In this document: positions 455 through 63,120 of the stretch, in pieces
Layout: the number at the start of each line of letters is the position of its first letter
Position numbering within the stretch: the stretch's first letter is position 1
Source of the DNA: Agriterribacter humi
GTDB lineage: Bacteria; Bacteroidota; Bacteroidia; Chitinophagales; Chitinophagaceae
DNA length: 64,000 nucleotides
Assembly: GCF_009192765.1 (NCBI RefSeq)
Contig: NZ_VOHQ01000005.1
Span: 186,001-250,000, forward strand
Reading direction: 5' to 3'
Program-made: the position numbers and the translations under genes
The notes under the pieces: model-generated
Database searches by the model: none
Seen by the model: the letters and a program-made list of their open reading frames with translations, nothing else
What the model was told of the DNA's origin: nothing

Positions 455-571
455 ATTCAGCGATCAGCCATCAGCATTCAGCCAGAAGCGATGGTTGAAA
501 GCCATAAGCAATCCAGTGCTATGTTAATCGTGAAACGTCAGAAGTCAAACGTGGAAATCTCACGTCTCACA
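455..571. repeat. Heptamer repeat array after the FAD oxidoreductase gene
   Basis: TCAGC recurs with exact 7-nt spacing at 457, 464, 471 and 478. A second block from 530 to 571 reads as six 7-nt units: four of the type GTGAAAC/GTCAAAC, then two of the type TCTCACG, which are close to the reverse complement of the first type. The two halves could pair as an imperfect hairpin. The array begins 18 nt after a stop codon and fills most of the gap before the next gene. Confidence 0.7.
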
Positions 572-609
572 ATTGTTTACGATGCAATAGTCTTAACTTA
601 ACATTAAAC

Positions 610-1569
610 ATGCAATCCACTAAGATCCCATTTGTGCGAACAGTTCTGGGAGACATTTCTCCTGCTGAAATGGGATTAACCTATTCGCACGAGCACATTG
701 TTATTGAGGAAAGTTATCCTACCCTGCAATATCCTTTGTTTCTGCTTAACGACGTAGATAAAATTTCGAAGGAATTAAAAAGCTTTTATGACGCAGGGGG
801 ACGAACGATGGTTGATACCATGCCCGCTGATTGTGGCCGTAATGTGCTCAAACTGGCTGAAGTTTCCCGCAGAACAGGTGTACATATTATAGCGCCTACC
901 GGCATTCATCTCGAAAAATATTATTTACCTAATCACTGGCGATATTCCTATACGGAAGAACAATTGACGCGGTTATTTATCGCTGATGTAATGATTGGAA
1001 TTGATGCCAATGATTATAACGGTCCTAATGTTGACCGCACCACGCATAAAGCCGGTATGATTAAGCTGGCCACCGGTGATGAAAAGATTACTGCCCACCA
1101 GGAAAAAATATTTCGTGCAGTAGTGAACACACACCTGGAAACCGGTGTACCTGTTTTAACCCATTCCAATTTTGGTAAACATGCCATTGACCAGGTGAAT
1201 ATATTTGAAAAGCTGGGCGCTCATTTAGCGCATGTGGTGATTTCACATGTTGATCGCTACGAGGATATTGGATACAACCGGGCATTACTTGAAACAGGGG
1301 TAAGAGTAGAATACGACAGTGCTTTCAGATGGAAAGAAAAAGAGAACTGGACCTATAAACTACTGCAAGCTTTATTGCCTGATTTTCCTGATCAGATAAC
1401 GATGGGAATGGATGCCGCTAAAAGCAGCTATTGGTTATCTTACGGTGGCAAGCCCGGATTGAATTTTTTGCTAACCACTTTTAAAGATGATCTGCAAAAG
1501 ATGGACTTAGTCCAGTATTATGAAAATATTTTTTTTAAAAACCCGGCGCAGTTGTATTCATTTTCTTAA
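610..1569 (+). CDS. Phosphotriesterase-family metal-dependent hydrolase
   Basis: 319 aa, amidohydrolase-superfamily TIM barrel of the phosphotriesterase-homology type. Visible metal ligands are HEH at residues 27-29 (strand 1), K152 (candidate carboxylated lysine), H185 in LTHSNF, H213 in ISHVDR and D268 in GMDAAK. This is the complete binuclear set of the family. No signal peptide is seen, so it should be cytoplasmic. Family members hydrolyse lactones, phosphoesters or sugar-derived lactones; the substrate here is unknown. Standing next to a flavin oxidoreductase and a sugar-oxidation-type cluster, a sugar lactonase role is possible but is inference. It converges with the DUF1080 gene. Confidence 0.8.
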   Translation: MQSTKIPFVRTVLGDISPAEMGLTYSHEHIVIEESYPTLQYPLFLLNDVDKISKELKSFYDAGGRTMVDTMPADCGRNVLKLAEVSRRTGVHIIAPTGIHLEKYYLPNHWRYSYTEEQLTRLFIADVMIGIDANDYNGPNVDRTTHKAGMIKLATGDEKITAHQEKIFRAVVNTHLETGVPVLTHSNFGKHAIDQVNIFEKLGAHLAHVVISHVDRYEDIGYNRALLETGVRVEYDSAFRWKEKENWTYKLLQALLPDFPDQITMGMDAAKSSYWLSYGGKPGLNFLLTTFKDDLQKMDLVQYYENIFFKNPAQLYSFS

Positions 1570-1636
1570 GGCATACATCTGCTATGCATATTTAAAGAGA
1601 AATTGTCTCAAAATATTCCTTTTTAGACCGGCCCCT

Positions 1637-2398
1637 CTACAACGCTCTTATCCAGATATTCCGAAAACTAACTTCACTCCCGTGACCTTGTAATTTGATA
1701 GCTGCTTTATCATGAAGCTCGTAGCGCGGAATACCGATATATTCTATCGTTCCCTGAATTTCAAAATGGTTCAGTGTTAATACTCCGTTATGCACTAAAG
1801 TAATATAGGCTGGTTTTTCAACACTACCGTTGTAGCGGAATCGGGGAGCTGTGTAATAAATGTCAAAAGTATTCCAATCACCCGGCTTGCTGGAAGCATT
1901 TGCCATAGGGATAACCTGTTTATAAATGCTTCCCATTTGTCCATTGGCATAGAGCGGCGTTTCATTATTATAAGAATCGAATATCTGTACCTCATAACGT
2001 TCCTGCATAAATACGCCACTATTACCGGCATTGTTGCGCTCAGTACTGTTTTTAGCATCTGCCGGAATTTTAAATTCAACATGTAACTGGCAATCACCAA
2101 ATTTTTGTTTGGTTTGAATATCGCCGGTTCCTGGCTTAAAAGTCATCACACCATCTTGCAATTTCCACAGGCAAGTACTCTTATCTTTTGACATTACCCA
2201 ATTATCAAGGTTTTTGCCATTGAATAGAACTATTGCATCGGATGGTGGTGCACTACCTATACCCGGAGTAACGATTTTAGGTAACGGGCCTACTACTTCC
2301 GTAGCTTCCGGTTTAGTATAATCTTTCTCAAAAATGTTCTGAGCTTTCGCCATAGAACAAAAACTTAATACAACCAGGGAAAACAATATTTTTTTCAT
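1637..2398 (-). CDS. DUF1080 (3-keto-disaccharide hydrolase-type) secreted protein
   Basis: The chosen start at 2398 gives a clean signal peptide (MKKILFSLVV...KAQ); an in-frame start 84 nt further out would put charged residues before it and run through a hairpin. The mature part has the PF06439 jelly-roll pattern: LFNGKNLDNWV, LQDGVMTF, then FGDCQLHVEFK, GNSGVFMQERYEVQI and a C-terminal ELHDKAAIKLQGHGSEVSFRNIWIR. The family includes hydrolases that cleave 3-keto glycosides and also sugar-binding homologues. It is the last gene of the SusC/SusD operon on this strand, 121 nt after susD, with a strong hairpin in the gap. A role in cleaving oxidised disaccharides made by the dehydrogenase-like protein at 7522-10398 is inferred. 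Confidence 0.8.
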   Translation of the reverse strand: MKKILFSLVVLSFCSMAKAQNIFEKDYTKPEATEVVGPLPKIVTPGIGSAPPSDAIVLFNGKNLDNWVMSKDKSTCLWKLQDGVMTFKPGTGDIQTKQKFGDCQLHVEFKIPADAKNSTERNNAGNSGVFMQERYEVQIFDSYNNETPLYANGQMGSIYKQVIPMANASSKPGDWNTFDIYYTAPRFRYNGSVEKPAYITLVHNGVLTLNHFEIQGTIEYIGIPRYELHDKAAIKLQGHGSEVSFRNIWIRAL

Positions 2399-2431
2399 AA
2401 AAATTTTTGATAACCGTAAAGATTGGGTAAG

Positions 2432-2459
2432 TAAACCCGGGTCTTTCAACCCGGGTTTA
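2432..2459 (-). terminator. Strong 11-bp hairpin between susD and the DUF1080 gene
   Basis: TAAACCCGGGT at 2432-2442 pairs perfectly with 2449-2459 around a 6-nt loop. There is no U-tract on either side, so it is not a textbook rho-independent terminator. It lies between two co-directional genes of one cluster, so partial termination or 3'-end protection of the susCD transcript is the likely role. Confidence 0.55.
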
Positions 2460-2519
2460 TAATAAAACCAGCCTGCATACACTGGCGTTACGTTGCTCCG
2501 ATTATGTCTTTCAACAAAA

Positions 2520-12290: not shown

Positions 12291-12335
12291 GAGACAGAAT
12301 TCTTCCCGAAAAATTTCTACAGTTCCGGTTTCCCC

Positions 12336-12366
12336 TCTTACTTCTTACTTCTTACCATCTTAACTC
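12336..12366. repeat. Pyrimidine-rich heptamer array at the PNGase F 3' end
   Basis: Units TCTTACT and TCTTACC repeat at 7-nt steps from 12336 and continue, with one 8-nt unit, up to and slightly into the last codons of the PNGase F-like gene (through ~12380). It belongs to the same heptamer class as the other intergenic arrays in this window. Confidence 0.65.
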
Positions 12367-14295
12367 TTACCCTCCTACCCTAACCCGTTTATTAAAAACC
12401 AGCTTACCGCCCACATATACTTTTAAATAATAACGTTGTGCCGGCCGGTACGACAGGTCGTATGTAAACACAGCTTCTTTCAACTCCTCGTATATATGTT
12501 CTTCGATTACCTCATTGCCGGGATCGGTAACCAGGTGCACCGTTACTTTTTGGGGACTGTTCCCAAAGTAATCCATCGTGGTTTTGCCGCTTGTACGCGT
12601 TGGAAAAACACCGATAGCGGGCAGGGCATCCGGTAAAGCAAATGCTGTGGTATCGGTTGATACTTCAAAGCTATAATAGATATCACTTCCAAAATCCGAA
12701 TCAAAATGTTTCAGCAATTGCCCTTTACTATCCAGCAGCCGGGCAAAGCCTCTTCCACCACGATTATTGAACCAAAATTCCAGCCCGTTATCCGCCGTAT
12801 CTTTTAATACGAGCTCGTAACATCCGGGAGCTAAACGAAGTGTATCCCTGTAATCGGTTTCCGCTTCTAAGGTGCCTAAAGCTCTTTCATACATTGTGTT
12901 ACCATCACTGTTGCGTACAACATACCCGTTTTGCTGCGGCTGTTTGTTGGTGCGCAAATGAAACACCAGCTCACTGCCATGCACAGGCGCTTTTGTAAAC
13001 AGCGTATGCATGGTATTGTCACTCCTGTTATCATCTTTTTTTCCATTGGGTTCGGCAAGCGATACGTTGAAAGTATTTTCACCTGTATTACCCTGCACTT
13101 CACCTGGCAACCCTATAATCGCTTGCCGGTTAAACAACAGGTTGCCTTTCCATACATGTTTCCGCCGGCTAAAACCAGCCGTACCATACTCAATTACACA
13201 TTGTGTAAGCGGCTTACTGCCCATATTCCGGATTACGATTACGGGATTTGCACAGGAAGGGTTTTTACGAAGATGCGTTTTCGAACCCGTAGGTACCCTA
13301 ATATCTTCAACAGCCACATCATGTTGCGCCGCCGGTTTTTTATATTGAATGAGATAAGCGCTGATGCGTTCATTGGCACTGGGGTTACCGGTTACATAAG
13401 GTTCCATGTTAATATCTATCGTATGCTCTGTACCGTTAGTAACAGCCAGGTCAAAAACATCAGGTTGCTGCAGGTAGCCGGGGCACCAGTAGGCACGGTC
13501 TATAAGCCAGGTGCCTGCCTGCGGGTATAAAGGATTATCGCCACATTTTTTCCAGATATTCCTTTTGTCAATCATTTTCCCATCGAACCAAAGTTCGCGG
13601 TACCGGCTGCAAAACTCGCCGCAACCATTGGCGTCCATACCATGCCCCGTTTGAAAAATAAGGATACGGGTATGTTGCGTATTTTTTCCGGTAACAAAAG
13701 AAACCGGTTTTAATTTTTCCTCTATGCTTTGCGTACTGTCGCCATAAAGAAAGCTGCCATCATACAACTTAAGAATAGAAACAGGTTCCAGCACCGGCGT
13801 GCCTTCAACAATCTCAAAGGTTACGGTAATCTTCCAGCCCCTGTCGTTATTGGGTTCGTAGCCCGTATGCTCGTATTCAATTTCAACACTGTCCCGCAGC
13901 AATAAGCTAAAATCCGTAATGTCCGACTTCCAGTCAAAGCTCCAATCCTGCCCAAATGCGCCACCATAAGGAGTAAGCATTCTGCCAATGGGATAATCCA
14001 AAGACGGGCTGTTAACGCCTCCTTTCCTGCGGATATAAATATGATCTAAGTAATCCCAGTCGGCGCAACGCAAGGAATCCGGACAGCCGAAAATAACCAG
14101 CAGGTTAATTCTGCGTACCGGCACTTTTGTTGAGGGAAATACCGCCCACCGCCTGTAGGCTTTTACACCTTTGGCGGGATCGGTAACTACTACGGTTTGA
14201 TCGTGTGAAACCACGCGGATAGTATCACCTGTTTTTGACCAGAGCAGGGAAATGCAGCAAAAGATAAATACAAGGGATAATAGAACTGTTTTCAT
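12367..14295 (-). CDS. PNGase F-like secreted peptide-N-glycosidase with probable T9SS signal
   Basis: 642 aa with a signal peptide (~20 residues, ending near LLWSK). Residues ~25-300 match the two eight-stranded jelly-roll domains of peptide:N-glycosidase F, which frees N-glycans from asparagine. CADWD (77-81) and GCGEFC with E227, plus the QTGHG segment, are the conserved acidic/active-site stretches. Residues ~310-550 are an extra beta-rich region with a CARDB-like part. The last ~75 residues (FPTRTSGKTTMDYFG..., ending YYLKVYVGGKLVFNKRVRV) look like a type A C-terminal sorting domain, so export by the type IX system is likely. The longer architecture than the classical enzyme is notable. 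The gene ends a run of co-directional secreted hydrolases. Confidence 0.85.
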   Translation of the reverse strand: MKTVLLSLVFIFCCISLLWSKTGDTIRVVSHDQTVVVTDPAKGVKAYRRWAVFPSTKVPVRRINLLVIFGCPDSLRCADWDYLDHIYIRRKGGVNSPSLDYPIGRMLTPYGGAFGQDWSFDWKSDITDFSLLLRDSVEIEYEHTGYEPNNDRGWKITVTFEIVEGTPVLEPVSILKLYDGSFLYGDSTQSIEEKLKPVSFVTGKNTQHTRILIFQTGHGMDANGCGEFCSRYRELWFDGKMIDKRNIWKKCGDNPLYPQAGTWLIDRAYWCPGYLQQPDVFDLAVTNGTEHTIDINMEPYVTGNPSANERISAYLIQYKKPAAQHDVAVEDIRVPTGSKTHLRKNPSCANPVIVIRNMGSKPLTQCVIEYGTAGFSRRKHVWKGNLLFNRQAIIGLPGEVQGNTGENTFNVSLAEPNGKKDDNRSDNTMHTLFTKAPVHGSELVFHLRTNKQPQQNGYVVRNSDGNTMYERALGTLEAETDYRDTLRLAPGCYELVLKDTADNGLEFWFNNRGGRGFARLLDSKGQLLKHFDSDFGSDIYYSFEVSTDTTAFALPDALPAIGVFPTRTSGKTTMDYFGNSPQKVTVHLVTDPGNEVIEEHIYEELKEAVFTYDLSYRPAQRYYLKVYVGGKLVFNKRVRVGG

Positions 14296-17516: not shown

Positions 17517-17650
17517 GGTGAGTGGTGAATAGTCAATAGTGAGAGGAAGACCCTTTCATCGCTCCTTTCTCGTCTCTCGTTTTCCCTGCAATTTGCAACC
17601 TGTAACCGGCCTCCTGTCCCTGAAACCTGCAACTTGTAACCTGCCCCAAA
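17517..17650. repeat. Two-armed heptamer array between GH31 and esterase genes
   Basis: Four purine-rich units run from 17517 to 17544 (GGTGAGT, GGTGAAT, AGTCAAT, AGTGAGA). After a pyrimidine-rich stretch, units such as GCAACCT and GTAACCT recur from 17588 to about 17650, ending 8 nt from the GH31 stop codon. The two arms have opposite strand bias. Confidence 0.75.
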
Positions 17651-23814: not shown

Positions 23815-23877
23815 TGGGTGTTTGAATGAATGTGCAAATGAAAATTTTTTAGTTCCCTCTATGGTGCTTCTATGCAA

Positions 23878-23901
23878 CTATGTGTCTATGTGTCTATGTG
23901 T
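23878..23901. repeat. Three exact copies of an 8-nt tandem repeat
   Basis: CTATGTGT occurs three times in a row, preceded by degenerate copies from about 23859. It lies 60 nt past the DinB stop codon. Unlike the other arrays in the window the period is 8, not 7. Confidence 0.8.
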
Positions 23902-23962
23902 CAAAAAATAAATTGTTTTTGCTGTGCCGGACTGTTTTAACAAAAATGCGTAAATTGGTTTT

Positions 23963-34872: not shown

Positions 34873-34883
34873 TAGTAATTGGG

Positions 34884-35828: not shown

Positions 35829-35831
35829 GTT

Positions 35832-37877: not shown

Positions 37878-38076
37878 AATGATGAAATTAAGGTATTCAA
37901 CTATATAAAACAGCACGGCTATGCTGAATCTTATTCTAATTTACTATAGAGAAATTATATTTCGATTTATACTGCATAATGTACCTGCCGTTAATCTTTC
38001 GGTTTGGGTTTCGTGGCTAAGGGTTATAGGTTTCACACGGCGTACGCAGCGATATGCGCAGCGTGAATAAAAGTTT

Positions 38077-38428: not shown

Positions 38429-38491
38429 GCGGTTATATTCCATTAAAGGACAATAGCCGCTGTCGGCAGCTATTTCCTCCCGCGCTTCATT

Positions 38492-39013: not shown

Positions 39014-39014
39014 A

Positions 39015-39332: not shown

Positions 39333-39389
39333 GCCTGAAATTTTTGGAAAGATATAAAGATTTCCCACAACGCGGGCAATGAAACTGGC

Positions 39390-39445
39390 CACTCACTTCT
39401 CACCTTTCTCGTTCCACCTCTCACTTTCAATTCACTATCATTCAC
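39390..39445. repeat. Pyrimidine-rich heptamer array
   Basis: Eight 7-nt units run in register, among them CACTCAC, TTCTCAC, CTCTCAC and CATTCAC. The array lies between the DUF3817 gene and the 3' end of the GH28 gene at 39499. Only one strand type is seen here. Confidence 0.7.
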
Positions 39446-39498
39446 CACAGCCACAGCGCGTATAGGAGAACCATCACGTCCTTTAAGATACCATACGC

Positions 39499-40983: not shown

Positions 40984-40990
40984 TTCAAAT

Positions 40991-41731: not shown

Positions 41732-41733
41732 AG

Positions 41734-43212: not shown

Positions 43213-43401
43213 AATGATCTTATCGTTTAATAATTGTAACCGCCTGAATCTCATATCCGGCTTCATCCTGGTTGTTGTGCTTTCCGGAAAGTGAATTGTT
43301 TCCGGACTCCAGTCTTTATCTAGCACGAAAGTGTTATGGACTGCAGGCAGAAACTCATTATCAACTGGCTTTTGGAGAAGTTTAAAGGTTAATACTTTAA
43401 A

Positions 43402-44862: not shown

Positions 44863-44879
44863 ATCACTGTTTTTAAAAA

Positions 44880-47800
44880 TCAGAAACTAATGTTTAAGTT
44901 GATGCCAAAAGACTGTACAGATGGCAATGCTCCGCCCTCTATTCCTATAATATTTGAATCTGAATTAATAATGTTCGAAGGGTCTACGTTAGGCGAATTG
45001 GAGCTGATCAGCCACAGGTTCCTGCCATATAATGAAAGTGTAGCCTTATTAGAATGAATGGCCCGGATCCATTTTTCAGGTAAGCTATATCCAAGCTTTA
45101 CTTCCCTTAAGTATACATAGCTGCCATCATACAAATTGGCTTTATTAAGCCTGGTACCGAAGTTGTTTTTGAAATAACGCGGGGCTGTAAGCCTGGTGGT
45201 CAGGGGGGTTCCATCGGCCAATACACCTGTAACATCTATACCGGTTTCCCTGATATTATTGGCAACGGTTTCCTGTAACATGCCCGAAGCAAATCCATAC
45301 ATATTGGTGTAAGAAAAGAAATTTCCGCCTTTTTGGAAATCAATCAATCCACTCAATACAACGCCTTTATACGTGAAAGTGTTGGTTATACCTCCCACAA
45401 AATCGGGTTGGGTACTACCAATAACCTGATTTTTATCGGAGGGTACATAAAACCCGTTAGCATCAACCACTTTTTCTCCCTTTAAATAGGTGTAATCTGT
45501 ACCGGTAAGTACAAATAATGGTTGTCCAACGATTGCCGCAACAGAAACAGAATTTCTTCTCCGCTCTGTTGCCAGAATGTAACGGTCAATACTCGGATTA
45601 TTTGGAATATCCAAAGCCAGCAAAATACTGCGGTTTGCAGCGTAATTAATTCCTATTGTCCAGGAGAAATGCTCAAACTGCAAAGGGATACCCGTTAATT
45701 GCAATTCAATTCCCCTGTTTCTTGATTTTCCAACATTGGTAAGAAAGGAGCTATACCCCGAAGTATTGGAAATGGAAAGTGGCATTATCAAACCATTGGT
45801 GATCCGGTTGTAGAAAGTAAAGTCAATACCAATACGGTTTTGCAGGAACTTTAGTTCTACCCCCGCTTCTATTTCATTGCTTCTTTCAGGTTTTAACTTA
45901 CTGTTCGATAATGTAGGGTTCCTTAAAATATAGGGATTACTTCCAAATAGTACAGCAGGGTTATATGCTACCTCGGTTCTGTAAGGGTCCGTATCGCTCC
46001 CTATTTGTGCCACACTTGCTCTGAATTTCCCATAGCTAAGCCATTTGCTGGCGGAAGTCAGCCAGTTTGAAAAGATAACAGACAGGGAACTTGCAGGATA
46101 AAAATAAGAATTGTTTCCTGCCGGCAGCGTGGAAGACCAGTCATTTCTTCCCGATATATCCAGGAAAACAGCATCCTTATACCCCAGTGTTGCAGTTCCA
46201 AAAACAGAGTTTATTGTTTTTTTGAAAATATTCTCTCCAACACCAATCCTTCCAATATTATTGGTAAGGGTATATAATCCGGGAGTGATGAGTCCTGCAT
46301 AACTGGCCGAATTTACTACATCTTTTGAGTTCATTATATTTCCGCCCAATGCCGCGCTGATATTAAGACTTTGACTGAGCTCCTTTTGTGCAGAGGCAAT
46401 AAATTGATAATTCAATTCTCTATGCTCAATGTCTGTTCTTGAATAATTACCGGGCGTATAATCCCTGGCTACGCGTTCTTCCCGCAAGGTATTGAACTGG
46501 TCAATAAAAACTTTTGCAGAAAGGTTGATCCAGTCTACCGGTTTAAAATCAAACCCTGTCAACCCGTATAACCGCTTCCTTTTATCGGTAGGATAATCTT
46601 CATATTGATGCCAGTAAGGAGTAGTAGCGAAAAGCGGACGGGGATTGGTTGGAGAGGTTCTGTTCCAGCTAACCTGCGAGCCATCAGCAAACTTGTAAAA
46701 TTTCAACATATCCATCTCCAGTTGCCTTTGCCCATACATAGTGAATAGCTGGGTTGGATTGTAACCACTAAAGCCGGTTGCCGATTGGCCCCTTACGAAG
46801 TTTTCAGAATAATTGGCACTCAGTACTACACTCAGGTTCCTGTTTTTGGTGAGTATATGGCTGCCGTTAAAGCCAAAATTATTTCGTTTCAGAAGGGAAT
46901 TGGGAAGAATAAAATTTTGATTCAGGTTGCTGTATGCCAGTCTGAATGATCCTTTGTCATTGCTTCCTCCCACACTGATGCTGTTGGTTAAAGTAATTCC
47001 TGTTTCATAAAAATCCCTGATATTATCCGGCTGAGGCGACCAGGGTGTAGTAACACCAAAATAGGGATTGCCCTTATCCTGATCAAAAGAGTAATAGGGT
47101 CTTATAATCTGTCCTTTAAGTTCAGGTCCCCATGATTCATCAACCGAATACTGAGGCAGCAGATCATATCCTCCATTCACCGGGTCATTATATGTGGGGC
47201 CATTCAAAAAAAGATCCGGGAATTTGCTCTGCCATAAGGTATCAAAGCCACTGGCCACAAAATCGGGTGCATTATTAGATCCGCCGCCGCCATACCTGTT
47301 TTGAAATTTGGGCAAATAATACACATTGTCTATTTGAGCATTCATATTATAGGTAATGCCTAATCCATATTTCCTATTTCCTTTTTTAGTGGTAATGAGT
47401 ACCACGCCATTCGAACCTCGGCTGCCGTACAATGCGGTAGCCGCGGCCCCTTTTAAAACACTGATCTGATCAATATCATCGGGGTTTATATCCTGAATGG
47501 GGCTGCCATAATCATATCCGCCACCCCCTTTTTCCTGGTTGGTGTTGGCAATGGGCGAACTATTACCCATGAAAATGCCGTCAATAACAAAGAGCGCATT
47601 GTTGTTACCCGTAATGGATTTATTACCCCTTATAAGTATTTTTGTAGAACCACCCAGAGCGCCATTATTGGTGTTTATTTGAACACCCGCTAATTTGCCC
47701 TGTAAAGCATTTACAAAATTCGCTTCTTTAGCCGTTTGTATGGCATCCCCTTTTATTTCTGCAATGGAATAACCAACGGCATCCGTCTTTTTTGAAATAC

Positions 47801-48146
47801 CCAGGGCGGTTACTTTTACTTCAGTCAGTTGCTGGGCATCCGTATTGACCGATAAAATCACTGTAAGGTAGGCATCGGGGTTATCAACCACCAAAGTAGT
47901 ATCCCGGTAACCCACGCTGGTAATCAGTATACTTGTTCTTTTGCTGAAGGGAAAACTGAATTCACCATTATTATTGGTGCTGTACATATTGCCGTCATCC
48001 GGCGTTAGGGTGGCGCCCGCTAAAGGATTGCGGTCCTGGTCAAGCACTCTTCCCCTGATATTTTTGACGGTGTCCTGTGCGGCAAGCGTACAAAATGAAA
48101 GCGCCGTAAAACAGAAAAAGCATAGCAGTCGTTTTTTAAATGGCAT
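44880..48146 (-). CDS. SusC-like TonB-dependent importer (second cluster)
   Basis: 1088 aa with a signal peptide (ending TLAAQ). Carboxypeptidase-D-like domain at ~25-115 (IRGRVLDQDRNPLAGATLTPDD), TonB box and plug (LTEVKVTALGISKK, TKILIRGNKSI, ALFVIDGIFMGNS, QISVLKGAAATALYGSRGSNGVVLITTKKG), then the barrel ending in SFGINLNISF. There is no STN domain. It imports oligosaccharides together with the SusD encoded 17 nt downstream. The gap to GH78 upstream is 106 nt with no strong terminator, so GH78-susC-susD-GH28 may be one transcript. Confidence 0.95.
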   Translation of the reverse strand: MPFKKRLLCFFCFTALSFCTLAAQDTVKNIRGRVLDQDRNPLAGATLTPDDGNMYSTNNNGEFSFPFSKRTSILITSVGYRDTTLVVDNPDAYLTVILSVNTDAQQLTEVKVTALGISKKTDAVGYSIAEIKGDAIQTAKEANFVNALQGKLAGVQINTNNGALGGSTKILIRGNKSITGNNNALFVIDGIFMGNSSPIANTNQEKGGGGYDYGSPIQDINPDDIDQISVLKGAAATALYGSRGSNGVVLITTKKGNRKYGLGITYNMNAQIDNVYYLPKFQNRYGGGGSNNAPDFVASGFDTLWQSKFPDLFLNGPTYNDPVNGGYDLLPQYSVDESWGPELKGQIIRPYYSFDQDKGNPYFGVTTPWSPQPDNIRDFYETGITLTNSISVGGSNDKGSFRLAYSNLNQNFILPNSLLKRNNFGFNGSHILTKNRNLSVVLSANYSENFVRGQSATGFSGYNPTQLFTMYGQRQLEMDMLKFYKFADGSQVSWNRTSPTNPRPLFATTPYWHQYEDYPTDKRKRLYGLTGFDFKPVDWINLSAKVFIDQFNTLREERVARDYTPGNYSRTDIEHRELNYQFIASAQKELSQSLNISAALGGNIMNSKDVVNSASYAGLITPGLYTLTNNIGRIGVGENIFKKTINSVFGTATLGYKDAVFLDISGRNDWSSTLPAGNNSYFYPASSLSVIFSNWLTSASKWLSYGKFRASVAQIGSDTDPYRTEVAYNPAVLFGSNPYILRNPTLSNSKLKPERSNEIEAGVELKFLQNRIGIDFTFYNRITNGLIMPLSISNTSGYSSFLTNVGKSRNRGIELQLTGIPLQFEHFSWTIGINYAANRSILLALDIPNNPSIDRYILATERRRNSVSVAAIVGQPLFVLTGTDYTYLKGEKVVDANGFYVPSDKNQVIGSTQPDFVGGITNTFTYKGVVLSGLIDFQKGGNFFSYTNMYGFASGMLQETVANNIRETGIDVTGVLADGTPLTTRLTAPRYFKNNFGTRLNKANLYDGSYVYLREVKLGYSLPEKWIRAIHSNKATLSLYGRNLWLISSNSPNVDPSNIINSDSNIIGIEGGALPSVQSFGINLNISF

Positions 48147-48252
48147 AGGTATCTTTTTAGGTGATCAAAAAAAATCGGATGTATCAATCATTTCCGGATA
48201 AAGATTTATAATATTTTCGGTTTATTTTTTAAATCTTTTGAATACCATATTA

Positions 48253-51200
48253 TTACATTGCCACGCTGAAACTATATTTCCCCGACTGCAATAGCACCTT
48301 CGTTTCCTTGCCCGTAGCTGAAAGTAATTTTACGCCTGCGGCACTTTTAATATCACTTCCGCTTTCGGTAACACCATTTCCGGCCGGAATAACAACTGTG
48401 GCCGTTGTATTCACAGGTATTTCCACATCTATACTAAAGCTTTCCTTTTCTTTTTTCCAGGATACGCCAATCCTGCCTGCAATAGAATGATAGGATCCTT
48501 TTGCATGGGTAAGGCTTCCTCCCGGAACGGGTTGAATGATAAAATGCTTATACCCCGCATTCTCTTTATCGTTATTAATACCCAGGATACTCCTGTACAT
48601 CCACTCTCCCACTGAACCTATGGCGTAATGATTGAATGAATTCATCCCGACATCCTGGAAACCCCTGCCCTTTACATATCCATCCCATCGCTCCCATATG
48701 GTGGTAGCGCCCTGGTCAACAGAATAAAGCCATGAAGGAAACCTGTGGCTTTCAATTAGCCGGTAAGCGATATCATTGTATCCAAACGCCGTTAACTGGT
48801 TCATTAACCGGATGGTGGTTTGAATACCGGTTGAAATACGGTAATCATATGCTTTAACTGCTTCCACCATATGTGCGGCTGCTTTTTGCTTCATATTTTC
48901 AGGTACAAGGTCAAAATCTAACGCCAATGCATACCCTGCCTGTGTATTGCCTGTTACCATTCCATCATCAGACACATATTCTTTTACAAATGCTGCTTTA
49001 CTATTTTTTGCCAGTGAATCATAATAGGCAATGTCGTCCTTTTTATTTAAGAGTTGGGCTGCTTTGGAAACAATGTTTGCAGAATATGCAAAAAATGCGG
49101 TGGCATATACATCATCCGGAACTTTGCCCCCTTCTTTTGGATAATCATCCGCAATAATTGTATTTCCATTCAGCCAGTCTCCGTATATATTACCGCGGGC
49201 CCGTTTCCAGAGCAGGTTCGGGTTTTCACTGACAATGCTGTGAATATATTTTTTCATCGCACCGTAATGTAATGACAGTACGGTGGTATCGCCATAATGT
49301 TCATAAACCTTCCACGGAATAATTACACCTGCATCACTCCATCCGGGAGAATTATAGAAATTGGCCATTACACCTACCTGGGGTGCAAAATCAGGGAAAC
49401 GTCCCTGGGAAGTTTGACAATCCCTTATATCGCGTATCCATTTGGTAAAAAAGGCTGCCATATCCATATTCAAAATAGCGGTAGTGGAAAATACCTGTGC
49501 ATCGCCCATCCATCCGGCCCGTTCATCTCTTTGCGGACAATCGGTAGGCGTTGAATGAAGATTATCGCGCTGCGTCCATAAAATATTCAACCACAGTTTA
49601 TTCAAATCCGGATTAGAGGTTTCAAAGTTACCAGCAATGGATGCGGAAGAGGCCACCACCCGGGCCATAACATTGCCGGGCTCAGGCTCCTGTGTGAGTC
49701 CTGATATTTCCACATACCTGAACCCGTGATAGGTAAAGCGCGGTTCATAGCTTATTTGCTTTTCATTCCCGGGAATATAAATATCGGTTTGCTTGGCCTG
49801 TCGCAGGTTATCGGTATATAATTTCCCTTCCTCATCTAAAACTTCACCAAAGCGCATCTTTATTGTTTTTCCGGGATTGTATGGCAGCTTTAATTGCACC
49901 CAGCCTGCAATATTCTGTCCAATGTCAAAAATATATGTGCCTGTTCCGGCAGAAATTATTTTAACGGGAACAATCTCTTCAGTAACTGCAATGGGTTCAT
50001 TCATTTGAGCGCTCAGTATAAGAGATACTTCATTATCCACAGTAACATGCTTCCATTTGCTGTCATCAAAACCGGCCTTATTTAAATCTGCCTGAACAAG
50101 CCTGGCGTCAAAATGTTCCCCATTAAAAAGAGATGCCTGCTGCACGGGACCATTCTCCCATATTTTCCAGCTTTCATCTGTTGCCACCAGGTCCCTGGTT
50201 TCATCATCGTATTCAACTGCTATCTGGGCCATTAATCTGCGGTCAAAACCATAGGAACCCCTGTCTGAATGCGAAAAGATTTCACCGGCATACCATCCAT
50301 CGGCCAGCATAGCCACAATAACATTTTGCCCCTGGTTCAGCAGGTTGGTTACATCGTAAGTTTGATATTGCACACGTGTATGATAATCCGTCCATTCCGG
50401 CGCAAGAATATATTGTCCACAGTTTTTTCCGTTGATGCGGATATCGTAAACGCCCAATGCACTGGCATACAGGAAAGCCTTTTTTACTTTTCTTTTTGTC
50501 GTAAATTCCTTACGCAATACGGGGGAAGGAGGAACGGGGAGGCTAAATTGTTTATGATTGAAATTGGGTTTTAAAAATCCGTCTGTTAAAAGTTCGGGGA
50601 GCCAGTTATCGCCTTTCAATCTCCTGTAATTATTAAAAAGATGATCTGCCAGTACATGCTTCTTTAATGCGATGTTTTTTCCCTGATCATCTAAAACTTC
50701 TATTTCTGCTAATGAAAAGCCAAACTGTGCCGAATCAATAGCGGCAGATTTTGTAACATACACTTTAATATAGCGCGCATTTGTTTTATTGAAGTGTATA
50801 TAATACGGGCTCACTCCTTTTGAAACATAATCATTGCCTGTTTCATCAGCAAGGATAACCGGGGAACTAAAATCAGCGGTGGAGGAAGCCACTATTTTAA
50901 AACGTACCGGGAAAATAAAAGGGGAAGACTCCTGGTATAATACCACGGGATGTAAACGAATGGCAGCAAATGATTCAGGCTTGCCCAAATCAACAGTTAC
51001 TGATCCGGGGTTTGTTGCCGATGAATCGCTCCGCGACTGATAGCCATAATGAAAATAGAACCTGTCTTCCATTGGAACCTGCTGTGGCGCAGCGCCTATC
51101 CATTTGGCCTTCCAGTCTTGTTTATTCAATAATCCTGCAGACCAGCTTGCAATTTCACTCCACGCACTTGTATTTCCCTTTTCATCCCACACTCTTACTT

Positions 51201-51531
51201 TCCAGTAATATTGGTAGCCCGATTCAAGGGCCTTACCTCTGTATTTTACCTGGTTTGTTTGATTTGATTTTACTTTTTCAGAATCCCATACATCAGCTTT
51301 ATCTTCTGTCAGCATCCCAGAATCGCCCGCTACCAACACCTGGTATGCCGATTGTGATTTTGCTCTTTCATCCGACAACAATTCCCAGCTTAGCCTGGGT
51401 TGTGTTACATCAATGCCCAATGGGTTTTGAAGATACTCACAACGCAGGCGATCAATAGCTATGTTGGCGGGTTGTTCTTTACAGGAGAATAATATAAAAG
51501 CGAAGAAGAAGCAAAGCAGCCTGGTATTCAT
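48253..51531 (-). CDS. GH78 alpha-L-rhamnosidase with inserted discoidin-like domain
   Basis: 1092 aa lipoprotein (FILFSC lipobox). It begins with the Bac_rhamnosid N-terminal fibronectin-like region (LRCEYLQNPLGIDVTQPRLSWEL). The (alpha/alpha)6 barrel carries the signature CPQRDERAGWMGDAQ with E670 as the likely general acid and later WERWDGY. A stretch at about 160-295 (GSVTVDLGKPESFAAIRLHP..., ARYIKVYVTK) looks like a F5/8 type C carbohydrate-binding domain placed between the first two domains. It should release terminal rhamnose from pectin side chains or rhamnogalacturonan at the surface or in the periplasm, feeding the SusC/D pair. Confidence 0.92.
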   Translation of the reverse strand: MNTRLLCFFFAFILFSCKEQPANIAIDRLRCEYLQNPLGIDVTQPRLSWELLSDERAKSQSAYQVLVAGDSGMLTEDKADVWDSEKVKSNQTNQVKYRGKALESGYQYYWKVRVWDEKGNTSAWSEIASWSAGLLNKQDWKAKWIGAAPQQVPMEDRFYFHYGYQSRSDSSATNPGSVTVDLGKPESFAAIRLHPVVLYQESSPFIFPVRFKIVASSTADFSSPVILADETGNDYVSKGVSPYYIHFNKTNARYIKVYVTKSAAIDSAQFGFSLAEIEVLDDQGKNIALKKHVLADHLFNNYRRLKGDNWLPELLTDGFLKPNFNHKQFSLPVPPSPVLRKEFTTKRKVKKAFLYASALGVYDIRINGKNCGQYILAPEWTDYHTRVQYQTYDVTNLLNQGQNVIVAMLADGWYAGEIFSHSDRGSYGFDRRLMAQIAVEYDDETRDLVATDESWKIWENGPVQQASLFNGEHFDARLVQADLNKAGFDDSKWKHVTVDNEVSLILSAQMNEPIAVTEEIVPVKIISAGTGTYIFDIGQNIAGWVQLKLPYNPGKTIKMRFGEVLDEEGKLYTDNLRQAKQTDIYIPGNEKQISYEPRFTYHGFRYVEISGLTQEPEPGNVMARVVASSASIAGNFETSNPDLNKLWLNILWTQRDNLHSTPTDCPQRDERAGWMGDAQVFSTTAILNMDMAAFFTKWIRDIRDCQTSQGRFPDFAPQVGVMANFYNSPGWSDAGVIIPWKVYEHYGDTTVLSLHYGAMKKYIHSIVSENPNLLWKRARGNIYGDWLNGNTIIADDYPKEGGKVPDDVYATAFFAYSANIVSKAAQLLNKKDDIAYYDSLAKNSKAAFVKEYVSDDGMVTGNTQAGYALALDFDLVPENMKQKAAAHMVEAVKAYDYRISTGIQTTIRLMNQLTAFGYNDIAYRLIESHRFPSWLYSVDQGATTIWERWDGYVKGRGFQDVGMNSFNHYAIGSVGEWMYRSILGINNDKENAGYKHFIIQPVPGGSLTHAKGSYHSIAGRIGVSWKKEKESFSIDVEIPVNTTATVVIPAGNGVTESGSDIKSAAGVKLLSATGKETKVLLQSGKYSFSVAM

Positions 51532-51698
51532 ATGGCAATTTTTACAAGGATACCAACTCCTTTGTACTATTTCAAATGTTTTTATAACATTTTAGAATGT
51601 TTTTTAAGCTTTCTGCAAACATAATACAGGCTGGTATGCTTTGTGTACGTTAGCGTTTTATACTACGCAGTGGAAACAGTATTGCCAGTTGCTTTTTC

Positions 51699-56751: not shown

Positions 56752-56876
56752 CAGTAAGGGTTTAGTAATACAGGTGAGTACACCGGCGTTGTGATAAGAG
56801 CACTAAAACATCGGCCGCTAAGCTGGGAAAATAAGTGAGAAATGACATGGAGGAAACGAAAAAGTTTCGAAACATT

Positions 56877-56904
56877 CAAATCTCAAATTTTAAATCTCAA
56901 ATCA
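56877..56904. repeat. CAAATCT heptamer array at the neuraminidase 3' end
   Basis: Four in-register 7-nt units (CAAATCT, CAAATTT, TAAATCT, CAAATCA) end 3 nt before the stop codon of the gene at 56908. They are the reverse complement of the AGATTTG units found at the 5' side of the same gene. Confidence 0.75.
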
Positions 56905-56907
56905 CAT

Positions 56908-58008
56908 CTACCTGTCTTTGGCCGCTTTTATCAATGCATCTTTAGTACCTATCCAGTAAGCGATATTCTTCCTGTTCCATGTATAGCTTACGGCAATAGT
57001 ATCCCCATAGCTGATCACTGCGGGGTAGGAAAACTCGTCTTCTTTATCGCCGCTGTCAATATCCAATATCTTCGGCCAGGTAGCACCGTTATCAAATGAT
57101 ATAGCAAGCGAAAGCGGTGAACGCGAACCCCAGTTAGCCGTATCCGGATTATAGGCCAATACCAGTGTTCCATCTGGAAGTTTGGTAAGATCAATACCGC
57201 TGTTGGGATTGGGCAACCCTGATTTGCTGCCGGCAGACCAGGTTTTTCCCCCGTCTTCGGAATCACTGCGATAGATTGCGCCTTCAGAACTGCGCAGCAA
57301 CATATGCACTTTACCGGGAGCGGATTCCCATAGGGTAGGTTGTATTACTCCCTTGCCTTTAAACTCTTTTCTGTTTAACGCTATATATGGAGCAGCCGTC
57401 CATGTTTTACCCTGGTCGGTACTGATATCTGCAAAAGCATCCCATTTTCCTTCTTCGTGAGAAGCACCTGCTATCCACAATCCGCCGCACGTTACAATAG
57501 GCTTATTGCGCACCGGTCCTCTTCCTCCTTTATCGCCCTTCACCAGTTCGGTGGCTTCCGACCAGGTTTGCCCGTTGTCATCAGAAGTTTTTACCCATGT
57601 TTCCCATGAAGGAATTTTTTTCCCTACTTTAAAATACAGAAACACTCTGCCTTCGGGAGCCTGGAATAATACAGGGTTCCAATGTGCATCTTCTCTTATT
57701 TTAGCCACTTCAACCGGCGTTGTCCAGTTGCCGGGTTTACCCTTTACCAGCCAGATCCCTACATCATCGGTTCCCTCTTTTTGTCCGCCAAACCATGCAG
57801 CCAAAAATTCACCATTTTGCAAATGCAGAATGGTGGATGCATGGCACTCCGGGAAAGGCGCAGGCATCGTAAAAAAATATCCTTTTACAAAAGATGAATC
57901 ACCGGCAGGCATATCGGCGTCTTTACTATTGGTTTCTGTTTTCTGTTGCGGCCCCGAGCAGGCAGACAAAATGAAAATACATAAAACTGTGAGTAGTTTA
58001 ACAGGCAT
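56908..58008 (-). CDS. Predicted neuraminidase (BNR-repeat lipoprotein)
   Basis: 366 aa. The lipobox ILSAC gives a lipoprotein. The propeller shows four Asp boxes: TSDDNGQTW, STDQGKTW, SEDGGKTW and SFDNGATW. FPECHASTILHLQNGEFLAAWFGGQKEG is the mark of the COG4692-type predicted neuraminidases, which lack the classical FRIP arginine motif; I see none here. The C-terminal DEFSYPAVISYGDTIAVSYTW is conserved too. Together with the NanA-like lyase and sodium symporter upstream it suggests use of a nonulosonic or uronic acid sugar. The gene is flanked on both sides by inverted heptamer arrays. Confidence 0.8.
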   Translation of the reverse strand: MPVKLLTVLCIFILSACSGPQQKTETNSKDADMPAGDSSFVKGYFFTMPAPFPECHASTILHLQNGEFLAAWFGGQKEGTDDVGIWLVKGKPGNWTTPVEVAKIREDAHWNPVLFQAPEGRVFLYFKVGKKIPSWETWVKTSDDNGQTWSEATELVKGDKGGRGPVRNKPIVTCGGLWIAGASHEEGKWDAFADISTDQGKTWTAAPYIALNRKEFKGKGVIQPTLWESAPGKVHMLLRSSEGAIYRSDSEDGGKTWSAGSKSGLPNPNSGIDLTKLPDGTLVLAYNPDTANWGSRSPLSLAISFDNGATWPKILDIDSGDKEDEFSYPAVISYGDTIAVSYTWNRKNIAYWIGTKDALIKAAKDR

Positions 58009-58012
58009 ATTG

Positions 58013-58235
58013 ATATTTGAGATTTGAGATTTGTGGTTTATAGTTTAGGGTTGCATTTCGCTTCGGATTCGGATTGGTGGCAAACATAGGAGCAATCAGG
58101 TGAGTACCTGCTAACGACACGATGAGTATTCTTTCTTTTACTTCTCATTTTTCACCTCTCTCTTCTCTCCTTCCGTCAGGCTTCGGATTCTGTTACTGAT
58201 ACCTGACACCTCATACCGTATACCTAACCCAACTC
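58013..58235. repeat. Two-armed heptamer array between lyase and neuraminidase genes
   Basis: Left arm 58013-58068: ATATTTG, AGATTTG (twice), TGGTTTA, TAGTTTA and further 7-nt units. Right arm 58141-58235: TTCTCAT, TTTTCAC, CTCTCTC and then TACCTGA, CACCTCA, TACCGTA, TACCTAA. It fills nearly the whole gap, from 4 nt before the neuraminidase start codon to 2 nt from the lyase stop codon. Confidence 0.75.
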
Positions 58236-58236
58236 C

Positions 58237-59175
58237 TCACGCTACATCTTCATACACCACTTCTTTAATGTCTAACTTTTCGTACCATGATTTTAAAGTA
58301 TCTAAAATGGAGTGTAAAACAGCTTTTTCTTTAGGTGTAGGCTCCAGTGCATGCGCCCTGCTAATGGCATGAATGGGCAGTCCTCTCAGTTGCATAAAAA
58401 ATTTAGCGCTCATGGGGTAAGCAACATGAATTAAAGGATCTACGCGGGCCAATTCAGCCTGTATCCATTCTACTTCCTTTTGCTTGGACGGGTCGTTAAC
58501 ATGATCACACAACCACACCAATATTTCGGGGTAAAAGTTACCGGCTATGGCCGATAGTCCCGCTGCACCGGCTTTCATGGAAGAAACGCCATTGGGCGTA
58601 TGGGCATCAAAAAATTGCATGGGTGTATTTTTGATCAGCGCTAATTTTGCCTTTACCTGTGCTTCATCGCAACAGGTATCTTTATGATAAAACATCCTGT
58701 TGGTTGATACCAGCGTTTTTAATACTTCCGGCGTTACCACTCTTTTATAAGGAGCGGGGCATTCATATAACCCGAGGGGAATATTACCCGTTAAGGATAA
58801 CATTTTTTCAAATCTTTGCAGCAAAATATCATCTCCTTCATCTATCGCCGCATAATGTCCGGTAATCAGTACAACCGAATCAATACCGGTATCAAATATT
58901 TTTTTGGTGAATTCCGCTTTATCTTCAATGGTTAGGCCAAATGAACCGGTTGCCACCACCGGAACGCGGCCGTTAACATGCTCCACTACGGCCCTGGTAA
59001 GTGCCAACCGCTCATCTTCACTTATACTATACATTTCGCTGGAAAGGCAATTGGCGAATAATCCTTTTACTCCCGCGGCAAGATAAAAATCAACCAGTAC
59101 TTTCACCATATCAAAATCGAGCTTTGCCTCAGGTGTAAACGGCGTTATCATTACAGGAACAAATTTCTTTGACAT
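58237..59175 (-). CDS. DapA/NanA-family aldolase (N-acetylneuraminate lyase-like)
   Basis: 312 aa, cytoplasmic TIM barrel. The Schiff-base Lys is K165 in FYHKDTC and the partner Tyr is Y137 in LGLYECPAP; both positions equal those of the E. coli NanA numbering. The GSTGE/GTTGE loop reads NCLSSEMYS (42-50), which departs from both NanA and DapA. It is likely to cleave or form a 2-keto-3-deoxy acid, with pyruvate as one product. Next to a predicted neuraminidase and a symporter, breakdown of sialic acid or a related keto acid is the best guess. Confidence 0.8.
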   Translation of the reverse strand: MSKKFVPVMITPFTPEAKLDFDMVKVLVDFYLAAGVKGLFANCLSSEMYSISEDERLALTRAVVEHVNGRVPVVATGSFGLTIEDKAEFTKKIFDTGIDSVVLITGHYAAIDEGDDILLQRFEKMLSLTGNIPLGLYECPAPYKRVVTPEVLKTLVSTNRMFYHKDTCCDEAQVKAKLALIKNTPMQFFDAHTPNGVSSMKAGAAGLSAIAGNFYPEILVWLCDHVNDPSKQKEVEWIQAELARVDPLIHVAYPMSAKFFMQLRGLPIHAISRAHALEPTPKEKAVLHSILDTLKSWYEKLDIKEVVYEDVA

Positions 59176-61909: not shown

Positions 61910-61919
61910 GAGCTATTTA

Positions 61920-61996
61920 TGATTTGCGGTTTTTGGTTTATGGTCGCATTTCGCTTCGGACTTAACAATTTGAAATTTGAGATATTAGATTTGAGA
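61920..61996. repeat. Heptamer array after the AraC gene
   Basis: Eleven consecutive 7-nt units start 10 nt after the stop codon, including TGATTTG, TGGTTTA, ATTTCGC, TTTGAAA and TTTGAGA. A 15-nt block from 61946 to 61960 is identical to 58053-58067 in the array near the neuraminidase gene. Confidence 0.75.
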
Positions 61997-62088
61997 TTGA
62001 ATCCGTTCGAATTCTTGCATGCATTGTCCCCTTCTACTCAATAGCTGAAATGGAAGAACTTATGCCCGCCTCTACCCTGAAGCACCGT

Positions 62089-62111
62089 CCCTCTCCGCTC
62101 CGGGGAGAGGG
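62089..62111. repeat. CCCTCTCC/GGAGAGGG palindrome upstream of kdsA
   Basis: An 8-bp perfect stem (62089-62096 with 62104-62111) and 7-nt loop, inside a longer C/T then G/A-rich stretch. It resembles the interspersed CTCTCC...GGAGAG palindromes seen in many bacterial genomes. It could fold in RNA ahead of kdsA, but no T-run follows, so it is not a standard terminator. Confidence 0.6.
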
Positions 62112-62143
62112 AAAGAGGGTGAGGTTACTTTCCCAGCCTTACC

Positions 62144-62151
62144 TAACTTTG
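62144..62151 (+). promoter_or_regulatory. -7-like element directly before the kdsA start
   Basis: TAACTTTG matches TAnnTTTG, but only 4 nt separate it from the ATG at 62156. If used, transcription would begin at or in the start codon, giving a leaderless message. Confidence 0.35.
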
Positions 62152-62155
62152 TCGT

Positions 62156-62974
62156 ATGGAACAATTTTTAAAAGACCTGTTTGCCGGGCAATCGTATAAC
62201 GAAAAAAACTTTTTCCTCATTGCTGGTCCCTGCGTTGTAGAAAGTGAGGAGCTGGTAATGGAAGTGGCCGAAAAAGTATCCGGCATTTGTAAAAACCTGG
62301 GCATTCCTTATATATTCAAAGCTTCTTACCGCAAAGCCAACCGTACCAGCGCCTCTTCGTTTACGGGTATAGGTGATGATAACGCGATGGCGCTGGTGAA
62401 AAGAACAGGTCAAAAATTCGGGCTGCCCACTACGTCCGATATACATGCACACGATGAAGCCGCATCCGCGGCCGCATATATTGATATATTGCAGATCCCC
62501 GCTTTTTTATGCCGCCAAACCGATTTGCTGCTGGCAGCGGCAGAAACCGGCAAGGTAGTAAATGTAAAAAAAGGACAATTTTTAAGCGGCCCCGCTATGA
62601 AGTTTGCGGTTGAAAAAATAAGAAAAGCAGGAAATAATAAAATTTTACTAACGGAAAGGGGTACCACATTCGGCTACCAGGACTTAGTAGTGGATTATCG
62701 CAATATCCCGTGGATGCAGGCGCATGGCGTACCGGTAGTAATGGATTGTACCCACTCTCTTCAACAGCCCAATCAAACCAGCGGCGTAACGGGTGGCAAT
62801 CCGCAACTGATAGGCACCATAGCGAAAGCTGCTATAGCGGCCGGTGCTGAGGGACTGTTTATAGAAACCCATCCTGATCCTGCTTCGGCTAAAAGTGATG
62901 GCGCCAATATGCTGCAATTGGATTTACTTGAACCGCTTTTAAAACAATTGCTGAAGATAAAGGCAGTGGTATAA
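62156..62974 (+). CDS. kdsA: 3-deoxy-8-phosphooctulonate (KDO-8-P) synthase
   Basis: 272 aa. It condenses phosphoenolpyruvate with arabinose 5-phosphate for lipopolysaccharide KDO. FLIAGPCVVESEE near the start has Cys26 at the position of the metal ligand of class II (metal-dependent) enzymes, where metal-independent forms carry Asn. FKASYRKANRTSASSF, SDIHAHDEA, QIPAFLCRQTDLL, NVKKGQFLSG and MDCTHSLQQPN are all in order. Cytoplasmic. The gene is single here and converges with the metal-binding protein gene across a long heptamer array. Confidence 0.97.
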   Translation: MEQFLKDLFAGQSYNEKNFFLIAGPCVVESEELVMEVAEKVSGICKNLGIPYIFKASYRKANRTSASSFTGIGDDNAMALVKRTGQKFGLPTTSDIHAHDEAASAAAYIDILQIPAFLCRQTDLLLAAAETGKVVNVKKGQFLSGPAMKFAVEKIRKAGNNKILLTERGTTFGYQDLVVDYRNIPWMQAHGVPVVMDCTHSLQQPNQTSGVTGGNPQLIGTIAKAAIAAGAEGLFIETHPDPASAKSDGANMLQLDLLEPLLKQLLKIKAVV

Positions 62975-62979
62975 GAAGT

Positions 62980-63120
62980 TTCAGGGAGCAGGTTACAGGA
63001 GAATGGGCTTGCGGGTTTGCAAACTGTCCTTGTACCTTGCAACCTGTACCCTGCAACTTGTACCTTGCAACCTGTAACCAACCATAAACTTCCAAACCAC
63101 AAACTTCAAACTTCCAACCA
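62980..63120. repeat. Longest heptamer array: inverted arms between kdsA and the HMA gene
   Basis: From 63019 to 63116 fourteen 7-nt units run without a break in register, of the types TACCTTG, CAACCTG, CAACTTG and then ACTTCAA/ACTTCCA. The left part (62980-63018) has G-rich units such as GGGAGCA and GGTTACA. GGTTACAGG at 62991-62999 is the exact reverse complement of 63071-63079. The array starts ~6 nt after the kdsA stop and ends at the stop of the opposite gene. Confidence 0.9.

Follow-up and report, generated by a model that had tools for sequence, protein, structure and literature searches.

Heptanucleotide arrays at gene ends in Agriterribacter humi and their possible kinship with long inverted repeats in related Bacteroidota

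Why do the gaps between the genes of one bacterium hold tandem repeats whose sequence differs from gap to gap while their period stays at 7 nt? The question is raised by a stretch of 64,000 nt from Agriterribacter humi (Bacteroidota; Chitinophagaceae), taken from a genome of 5.69 Mb assembled as 34 contigs; we refer to the whole stretch as “the window”. A sequence-only reading of the window had listed ten intergenic stretches with such arrays and had proposed slippage, a templated process or a 3′-end RNA element as their origin. Here, we describe the arrays, their position relative to genes, and their counterparts in related genomes. We give about an even chance to the explanation that the arrays are gene-end elements of one class, which we name “heptad hairpins”. 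In its full form, such an element would be a long, near-perfect inverted repeat that starts at a stop codon and has both arms made of 7-nt words; between convergent genes, it would often end at the opposite stop codon.

Seven-nucleotide arrays and their position relative to genes

In the intergenic DNA of the window, the rate at which bases match those 7 nt away is 0.3045, as compared with 0.2717 in dinucleotide shuffles (z 6.2), and there are harmonics at lag 14 (z 4.8) and lag 21 (z 4.1). Lags 5, 6 and 8 are weaker (z 2.3–2.6). The coding sequence (CDS) of the window has no lag-7 signal, its rate of 0.2546 being its own baseline; this is the pattern that the sequence-only reading had predicted for a comparison with shuffled DNA. 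Indeed, 7 is the best lag among 4–12 in all ten listed stretches, and in eight of them the best lag-7 segment is significant at P ≤0.003 against 1,000 shuffles, so the strict arrays are real; the other two stretches are marginal (Table 1). The signal is concentrated in the ten listed gaps, with a lag-7 rate of 0.366, as opposed to 0.271 and no peak in the remaining 23 window gaps of at least 30 bp.

The period extends well beyond the window. In 800 kb of the same genome (contig C1), we found 61 intergenic lag-7 segments with a score of at least 13, as compared with 1.8 in shuffles and three in CDS; the intergenic and shuffle counts each include one masked N run, so the true values are one lower. 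This run yields one segment at every lag and also raises all lags in a further comparison on C1; gaps containing N were excluded from later gap counts. Other lags among 4–12 gave 1–10 intergenic segments, with lag 8 giving 10, and 50 kb of Escherichia coli K-12 gave none at any of seven lags tested. The arrays of the window and of the genome are thus head-to-tail heptanucleotide simple sequence repeats located between genes (60 segments versus three in CDS at the same score, with the N run subtracted). Avoidance of coding sequence, as claimed from the sequence alone, holds for nearly all arrays and is not absolute: the array at 35990–36011 runs through the stop codon (36006–36008) of the minus-strand gene 36006–37916.

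In 864 kb of A. humi sequence, there are 136 arrays with 78 distinct consensus units, the commonest occurring in nine; as observed earlier, units differ between arrays and drift within them. Cyanobacterial heptanucleotide repeats go by the name STRR; a genome with that type has a single fixed unit word or a few, which is not the case here. Identical pairs among the units of the 136 arrays number 128, versus 16 for letter-shuffled units. Read on the G/T-rich strand, the commonest are forms of GGTTTCA, GGTTGCA, ATTTGAG, GTGAGTG and GCTGATA. G-tracts of the G-quadruplex type are rare: among 60 units listed of the 78, three hold GGG, corresponding to four of the 136 arrays. Some arrays form part of an ordered composite repeat; it measures ~250 nt and has 46 hits in the 864 kb, none within a called gene. 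Its copies have ragged ends, and the G/T strand faces the mRNA of the nearest stop codon in 32 of 45.

The arrays have a strong bias toward gene ends. Per kilobase of gap, there are 1.55 arrays between convergent genes, 0.74 between codirectional genes, and 0.10 between divergent genes. (Gene contexts come from a simple purpose-made gene caller, with some context error; gaps longer than 900–1500 bp, a limit that varied by script, were excluded from the hairpin and context counts; arrays close to two stops enter the order and context count twice.) Within occupied gaps, 36 of the 89 arrays have a stop codon at most 15 nt away, where 13.2 are expected, and seven have a start codon at most 15 nt away, where 6.9 are expected. 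The lag-7 rate itself climbs at the stop codon, and in nine of the ten array gaps of the window an array edge is within 14 nt of one. Where neighboring arrays are of unlike type, G/T precedes C/A in ten cases and follows it in none; of an inverted pair near the end of the upstream gene, only this order is seen in the genus, arm pairing being hardly above that of shuffles. Neither the inverted arrangement, nor the pull of the stop codon, nor the dispersed word families had been noticed in the sequence-only reading. As for a replication-strand bias, G/T and C/A arrays are mixed along the 800 kb of C1, with no relation to GC skew by eye.

These positions bear on the simplest account, in which heptanucleotides slip neutrally wherever DNA is unconstrained and purifying selection alone decides where they remain. 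The idea that 7 nt suits polymerase slippage is cited in PMC4692102. Neutral slippage would explain the scarcity of arrays in CDS and in divergent gaps, as well as differences in copy number between species. However, it does not predict the excess at stop codons inside the same gaps, the fixed G/T-then-C/A order, or the sharing of dispersed words, and we consider it unlikely.

A comparison with the nearest relative that we examined (G006) shows that array sites persist while copy number or words change. Among 21 gap pairs that could be mapped, arrays with a score of at least 11 are present in both species in six, in neither in 15, and in one species only in none; at a score of at least 9, one gap has an array in G006 only. 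The words differ in two of the six shared gaps. Changes in copy number were observed here between species and, in the hairpins described below, between arms.

Long hairpins of 7-nt words in relatives

We examined 80 named loci (1.39 Mb), mostly from Chitinophagaceae including Chitinophaga, plus Pedobacter and a few others; one of them (L107) is the G006 contig itself. Lag-7 segments number 102, whereas six other lags average 8.0, and occur in 32 of the 80 loci. Beside the 129 arrays in these loci, the best inverted match averages 13.0, whereas the best direct match averages 7.5 and shuffles 7.9. An inverted match of at least 14 stands beside 34% of the arrays (2% in shuffles), rising to 73% of 11 arrays in Pedobacter and 69% of 16 in Chitinophaga (0 in shuffles). 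Indeed, in Chitinophaga, Pedobacter and Sediminibacterium, the arrays are the arms of long hairpins. One Chitinophaga example (L173:8684–8837) folds as DNA at −77.5 kcal/mol, versus −15.5 for shuffles, and in species of Pedobacter such a hairpin stands between the same two genes with its words changed. The trait is patchy, since the first 20 kb of contig C1 in 20 other genomes (two chosen for carrying a word; three of the stretches fall short of 20 kb, and one of these three is all N) hold eight lag-7 segments in total.

The fullest picture comes from Chitinophaga solisilvae. Its 996,765 bases examined here contain 104 hairpins whose arms are at least 28 bp long, versus none in shuffles. The arms have a median length of 54.5 bp and a maximum of 112, the median loop is 18 nt, and the median minimum free energy (MFE) is −85.7 kcal/mol. 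The lag-7 rate is 0.535 in the arms, 0.271 in gap DNA outside the hairpins and 0.244 in CDS; because the signal is confined to the arms, period and hairpin make up a single element in this species. Both the confinement and the giant inverted arms strain the account by neutral slippage. Hairpins occupy 51 of 89 convergent gaps, 49 of 272 codirectional gaps, and three of 108 divergent gaps. They begin directly after stop codons: of the 49 codirectional ones, 40 have their base at most 14 nt past the upstream stop, where 10.4 are expected; 33 of the 52 convergent ones reach to within 14 nt of both stops; and among 153 stop-to-base distances from all contexts together, 120 are at most 14 nt (86.3 expected).

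Complementarity between the two arms of a hairpin is 96.6%, and the match is perfect in 25 of the 104; as arms were detected by their complementarity, this identity is partly by construction. Among the indels between arms, 12 are of 7 nt, as compared with three, one, two and one of 5, 6, 8 and 9 nt, and there are 65 of 1–4 nt. This 7-nt peak is what slippage in whole units would leave, neutral or otherwise. Of the 16-mers of an arm, 71% on average recur in its partner, and 54% are found among the arms of other hairpins; the hairpins listed have outer words in common and differ in their inner parts.

Could these be ordinary intrinsic terminators, with long stems kept by selection on RNA pairing? 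Their location at stops and between convergent genes, the stability of their folds, and the prevalence of T past codirectional stems (251 of 588 bases, the commonest base) would fit, as would a four-species Pedobacter alignment in which both sides have changed in three of 25 pairs. However, there is no proper U-tract, the longest T run in the 12 nt past the stem base being at most three in 40 of the 49 codirectional hairpins. Selection on RNA pairing should also make G.U mismatches more frequent than A.C, and the codirectional arms of both Chitinophaga species have 49 G.U and 43 A.C (P 0.60). The covariation term of the Pedobacter alignment is near zero (0.12), copies occur in divergent gaps, and the step of 7 nt is left unexplained. 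We regard intrinsic terminators as the least likely of the alternatives. Taken together, the match between arms, their frequent differences by whole 7-nt units, and the lack of a G.U preference favor the copying of one arm from the other at the DNA level over selection on RNA pairing. Among the convergent gaps of C. solisilvae, 13 of the 30 that lack a giant hairpin have a U-tract terminator, as compared with 10 of the 48 that hold one, which fits a role of the hairpins as transcription barriers.

Words are dispersed on a large scale. One 18-base word form, with one mismatch allowed, has 1995 matches in the 8.0 Mb of C. solisilvae (995 forward and 1000 reverse; control 0) and 138 in a second Chitinophaga species, C. 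hostae. Dispersal on this scale could reflect a mobile repeat family, similar to repetitive extragenic palindromic (REP) sequences or miniature inverted-repeat transposable elements (MITEs), with copies landing at gene ends or terminators and later decaying. The ordered composite repeat of A. humi, absent from called genes, would fit such a family. So would Y1 transposases (PF01797), with 10 matches in G000 and nine in Pedobacter terrae. Given these matches, mobilization by such an enzyme may apply to the genus Agriterribacter. However, neither G019 nor the two Chitinophaga genomes have a match to this RAYT-type enzyme, the ends of composite copies are ragged, the listed hairpins share outer words and not inner ones, and locations persist between species. 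A mobile family is therefore improbable in our view, to about the same degree as neutral slippage.

Across groups, sharing of words is uneven. Words common to Agriterribacter and other groups exceed letter-shuffled words at uncorrected P <0.05 in six of 13 groups, most strongly in Niastella, and do not exceed them in Chitinophaga or Pedobacter. Of 294 genomes of the family, 29 carry the pattern GGTTRCAGGTTRCAGG, A. humi among them (17 of 101 genera), versus three with the reversed control. TTTRTRGTTTRTRGTTT, rejected as a phylum-wide word, occurs in five of 61 genomes, A. humi included, versus four of 61 for the reversed control, and is background outside G000 (47 matches) and G015 (seven). 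All seven G015 matches are on the reverse strand, scattered along contig C1 (5.08 Mb). TTTCACCTTTCACC with one mismatch occurs in 51 of 58 genomes, A. humi included, many at control level; a clear excess over control is seen, for example, in G000 (65 versus 9), G008 (74 versus 6) and G006 (27 versus 6). The load of this one word is extreme in G019, with 388 matches versus 5 in the control.

Formation, maintenance and known counterparts

How might heptad hairpins form and persist? We infer that arms grow and shrink by slippage in units of 7 nt, and that one arm is rewritten from the other by fold-back or template-switch copying, as in quasipalindrome correction. Words would move between loci by recombination or copying. 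The elements may be retained at gene ends, chiefly between convergent genes, as bidirectional transcription barriers or as 3′-end protectors, and purged from most promoters; the barrier role is suggested by their position. Each of the three origins offered in the sequence-only reading has some support: a 3′-end association is observed, slippage is supported by the peak of 7-nt indels, and a templated process corresponds to the putative copying of arms. Together, these features suggest a little-studied, self-copying gene-end structure.

The weakest step concerns Agriterribacter itself. Pairing of arms was lost, or never arose, for most arrays in this genus, and these are therefore read as probably derived or decayed heptad hairpins, or as products of the same process. 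Several observations weigh against the explanation as a whole. Arm complementarity in the genus is barely above that of shuffles (8.06 versus 7.37), with 3% of 106 arrays reaching 14; in G006, it is below shuffles (6.74 versus 7.41); and a strict search of ~99 kb of Agriterribacter gaps returned only four hairpins. The 80 named loci are less polar than the A. humi genome, with 0.63, 0.71 and 0.37 arrays per kilobase in convergent, codirectional and divergent gaps, respectively. In six of them (L108, L110, L115, L151, L176 and L181), arrays or hairpins stand in the divergent promoter gap upstream of a PF00793-family gene; some adjoin TANNTTTG-like −7 boxes, so arrays in such gaps can occupy the place of the −33 region. 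Among codirectional copies of the composite repeat, 15 of 19 put the G/T strand toward the mRNA, an orientation not expected of a simple Rho-type terminator. The 54% recurrence of 16-mers may leave room for dispersal of whole hairpins, and the lack of a G.U excess might also reflect weak constraint of any kind.

A heptamer-excess paper of 2007 was reportedly the work of Mrazek and co-workers. The excess, noted in many bacterial genomes (reference 33 of PMC4692102), was ascribed to polymerase slippage (as cited in PMC4692102), and in the passages available to us the literature offers no mechanism beyond this guess. Closest in kind to the arrays described here are the heptad repeats GGGAATC and GGGGA(C/T)T of Xanthomonas and Nostoc described by Rehm et al. 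(2015, PMC4692102). According to that account, the Xanthomonas-type repeats lie on average 28 nt from the upstream open reading frame (ORF) and 160 nt from the downstream ORF; 7–8% are between divergent ORFs; each Xanthomonas genome has 70–75 inverted pairs of plus and minus repeats; and gene context is mostly kept in sister species while length varies. The likeness thus extends to the 7-nt unit, intergenic location, nearness to the upstream ORF, inverted pairs, and scarcity between divergent genes. However, as described there, the Xanthomonas and Nostoc repeats consist of one G-rich, G-quadruplex-capable word per genome, whereas here there are many words, few with a G-tract; and, unlike that type, Chitinophaga arms reach 112 bp and can take up the whole of a convergent gap between its two stops.

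Direct repeats of TAACTGA have been reported from Beggiatoaceae, Cyanobacteria and five Bacteroidetes (MacGregor 2015, PMC4679880), so that heptamer arrays have a precedent in this phylum, of which the sequence-only reading did not know. Those arrays are likewise mostly intergenic, and their indels between two Cyanothece strains are mostly 7-nt steps (PMC4679880). They differ in consisting of a single word and, in the Beggiatoaceae genome treated there, in lying mostly just upstream of start codons rather than at stop codons. Heptanucleotides of Calothrix are mentioned in PMC4692102. Cyanobacterial STRR are likewise short tandem heptanucleotides and differ in having few fixed units; in the passages available to us, giant inverted arms are not mentioned. 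A 2026 survey of bacterial inverted repeats found strong enrichment past stop codons (PMC13155455), considering perfect arms of 10 bp or longer with spacers of at most 8 bp; the hairpins described here have a median loop of 18 nt and mostly imperfect arms, and neither “Bacteroidota” nor “Chitinophaga” appears in the main text of that survey. Our literature search, which covered openly licensed PubMed Central papers, mostly by listing, brought up no account of giant gene-end hairpins built of heptads.

The 7-nt period itself is therefore not new; the anatomy is. Finding the period within giant inverted arms at stop codons ties heptamers to DNA hairpins and to gene ends, and C. solisilvae is an organism in which the mechanism can be examined. 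Long near-perfect palindromes are unstable in E. coli, where SbcCD cleaves them, which makes the number of hairpins in C. solisilvae surprising. Such hairpins may be one means by which these bacteria separate convergent genes. A bolder version, doubtful and put forward tentatively, would have the elements be self-maintaining: the replication machinery would extend them in 7-nt steps and rewrite arm from arm; hundreds of near-perfect palindromes of up to ~240 bp (a number extrapolated from 104 per Mb) would persist in one chromosome; the lexicon of words would be replaced genome-wide between species at fixed positions; and the elements would be a main barrier between convergent genes. If so, the 7-nt step would reflect a polymerase property common to Bacteroidota, Xanthomonas and Cyanobacteria.

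Array-bearing gaps of the window and further features

The array-bearing gaps of the window are listed in Table 1. Two of the ten listed stretches fold beyond z −3 relative to shuffles: 35833–36011, the strongest (MFE z −5.4; whole gap z −3.55), and 455–571 (MFE z −4.6; whole gap z −2.79). Within the window, only the tRNA reaches the gathering score of an Rfam family.

Table 1. Heptanucleotide arrays and related features of the window
Feature	Position	Strand	Context
Arrays 452–482 (TCAGCNN) and 523–552 (ACGTNAN)	gap 438–609	+	14 nt past stop at 437
CTTCTTA-family array	12323–12366	−	ends at stop of minus gene 12367–14295; related unit in more copies in G006
GT-type array, then CA-type array (AACCTGN)	17517–17540, 17587–17643	−	14 nt from stop of minus gene 17658–19796
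Weak heptad stretch	34884–34939	+	11 nt past stop of TamL gene 32572–34872 (NF052279); P 0.025
Convergent-gap element: GT-type array 35833–35882, 14-bp hairpin, CA-type array 35990–36011	35833–36011		GT-type array starts 4 nt past stop codon
Marginal heptad stretch	39392–39424	−	gap 39393–39498; listed stretch 39390–39445, P 0.048
TCAAATN array	56876–56906	−	adjoins stop of minus gene 56908–58008; array also in G006
Arrays 58010–58052 (TTTGAGA to TTTATAG), 58142–58169 and 58196–58224 (ATACCTN)	58010–58224	−	GT-type precedes CA-type; 12 nt from stop of 58237–59175; words differ in G006
Partial copy of dispersed ordered composite repeat (consensus ~250 nt)	58017–58136	−	further window copies at 61915–61974 and 63038–63078
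Arrays 61915–61944 (TTTATGG) and 61967–61998 (ATTTGAN)	61915–61998	+	5 nt past stop at 61909; followed by gene 62156–62974 (PF00793, DAHP/KDO8P synthase family)
CA-type arrays 63028–63079 (AACCTGN/ACCTTGN) and 63093–63118 (AAACTTC)	63028–63118	−	convergent gap; second array ends 2 nt from stop of minus gene 63121–63474

Several further features were observed in the window and in the named loci. In two of the named loci (L187 and L197), a GC-rich inverted repeat (CCTGTCCGCCGTGGCG) stands within or next to arrays, as if inserted. An outer-membrane barrel gene (35136–35828), located between two heptad stretches of the window, is absent from the syntenic G006 contig, where the region corresponding to 34873–35990 spans <100 bp. 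The ~13 kb at 38432–51673, with two ORFs of ~1090 amino acids and one rhamnogalacturonidase-like gene (below cut-off), is replaced on the syntenic G006 contig by ~2.9 kb of other DNA. Lastly, the window holds an 8-nt CTATGTGT array at 23869–23902; the orthologous gap in G006 (contig C80) contains longer tandem copies, with a unit of at least 100 bases that includes CTATGTGT.

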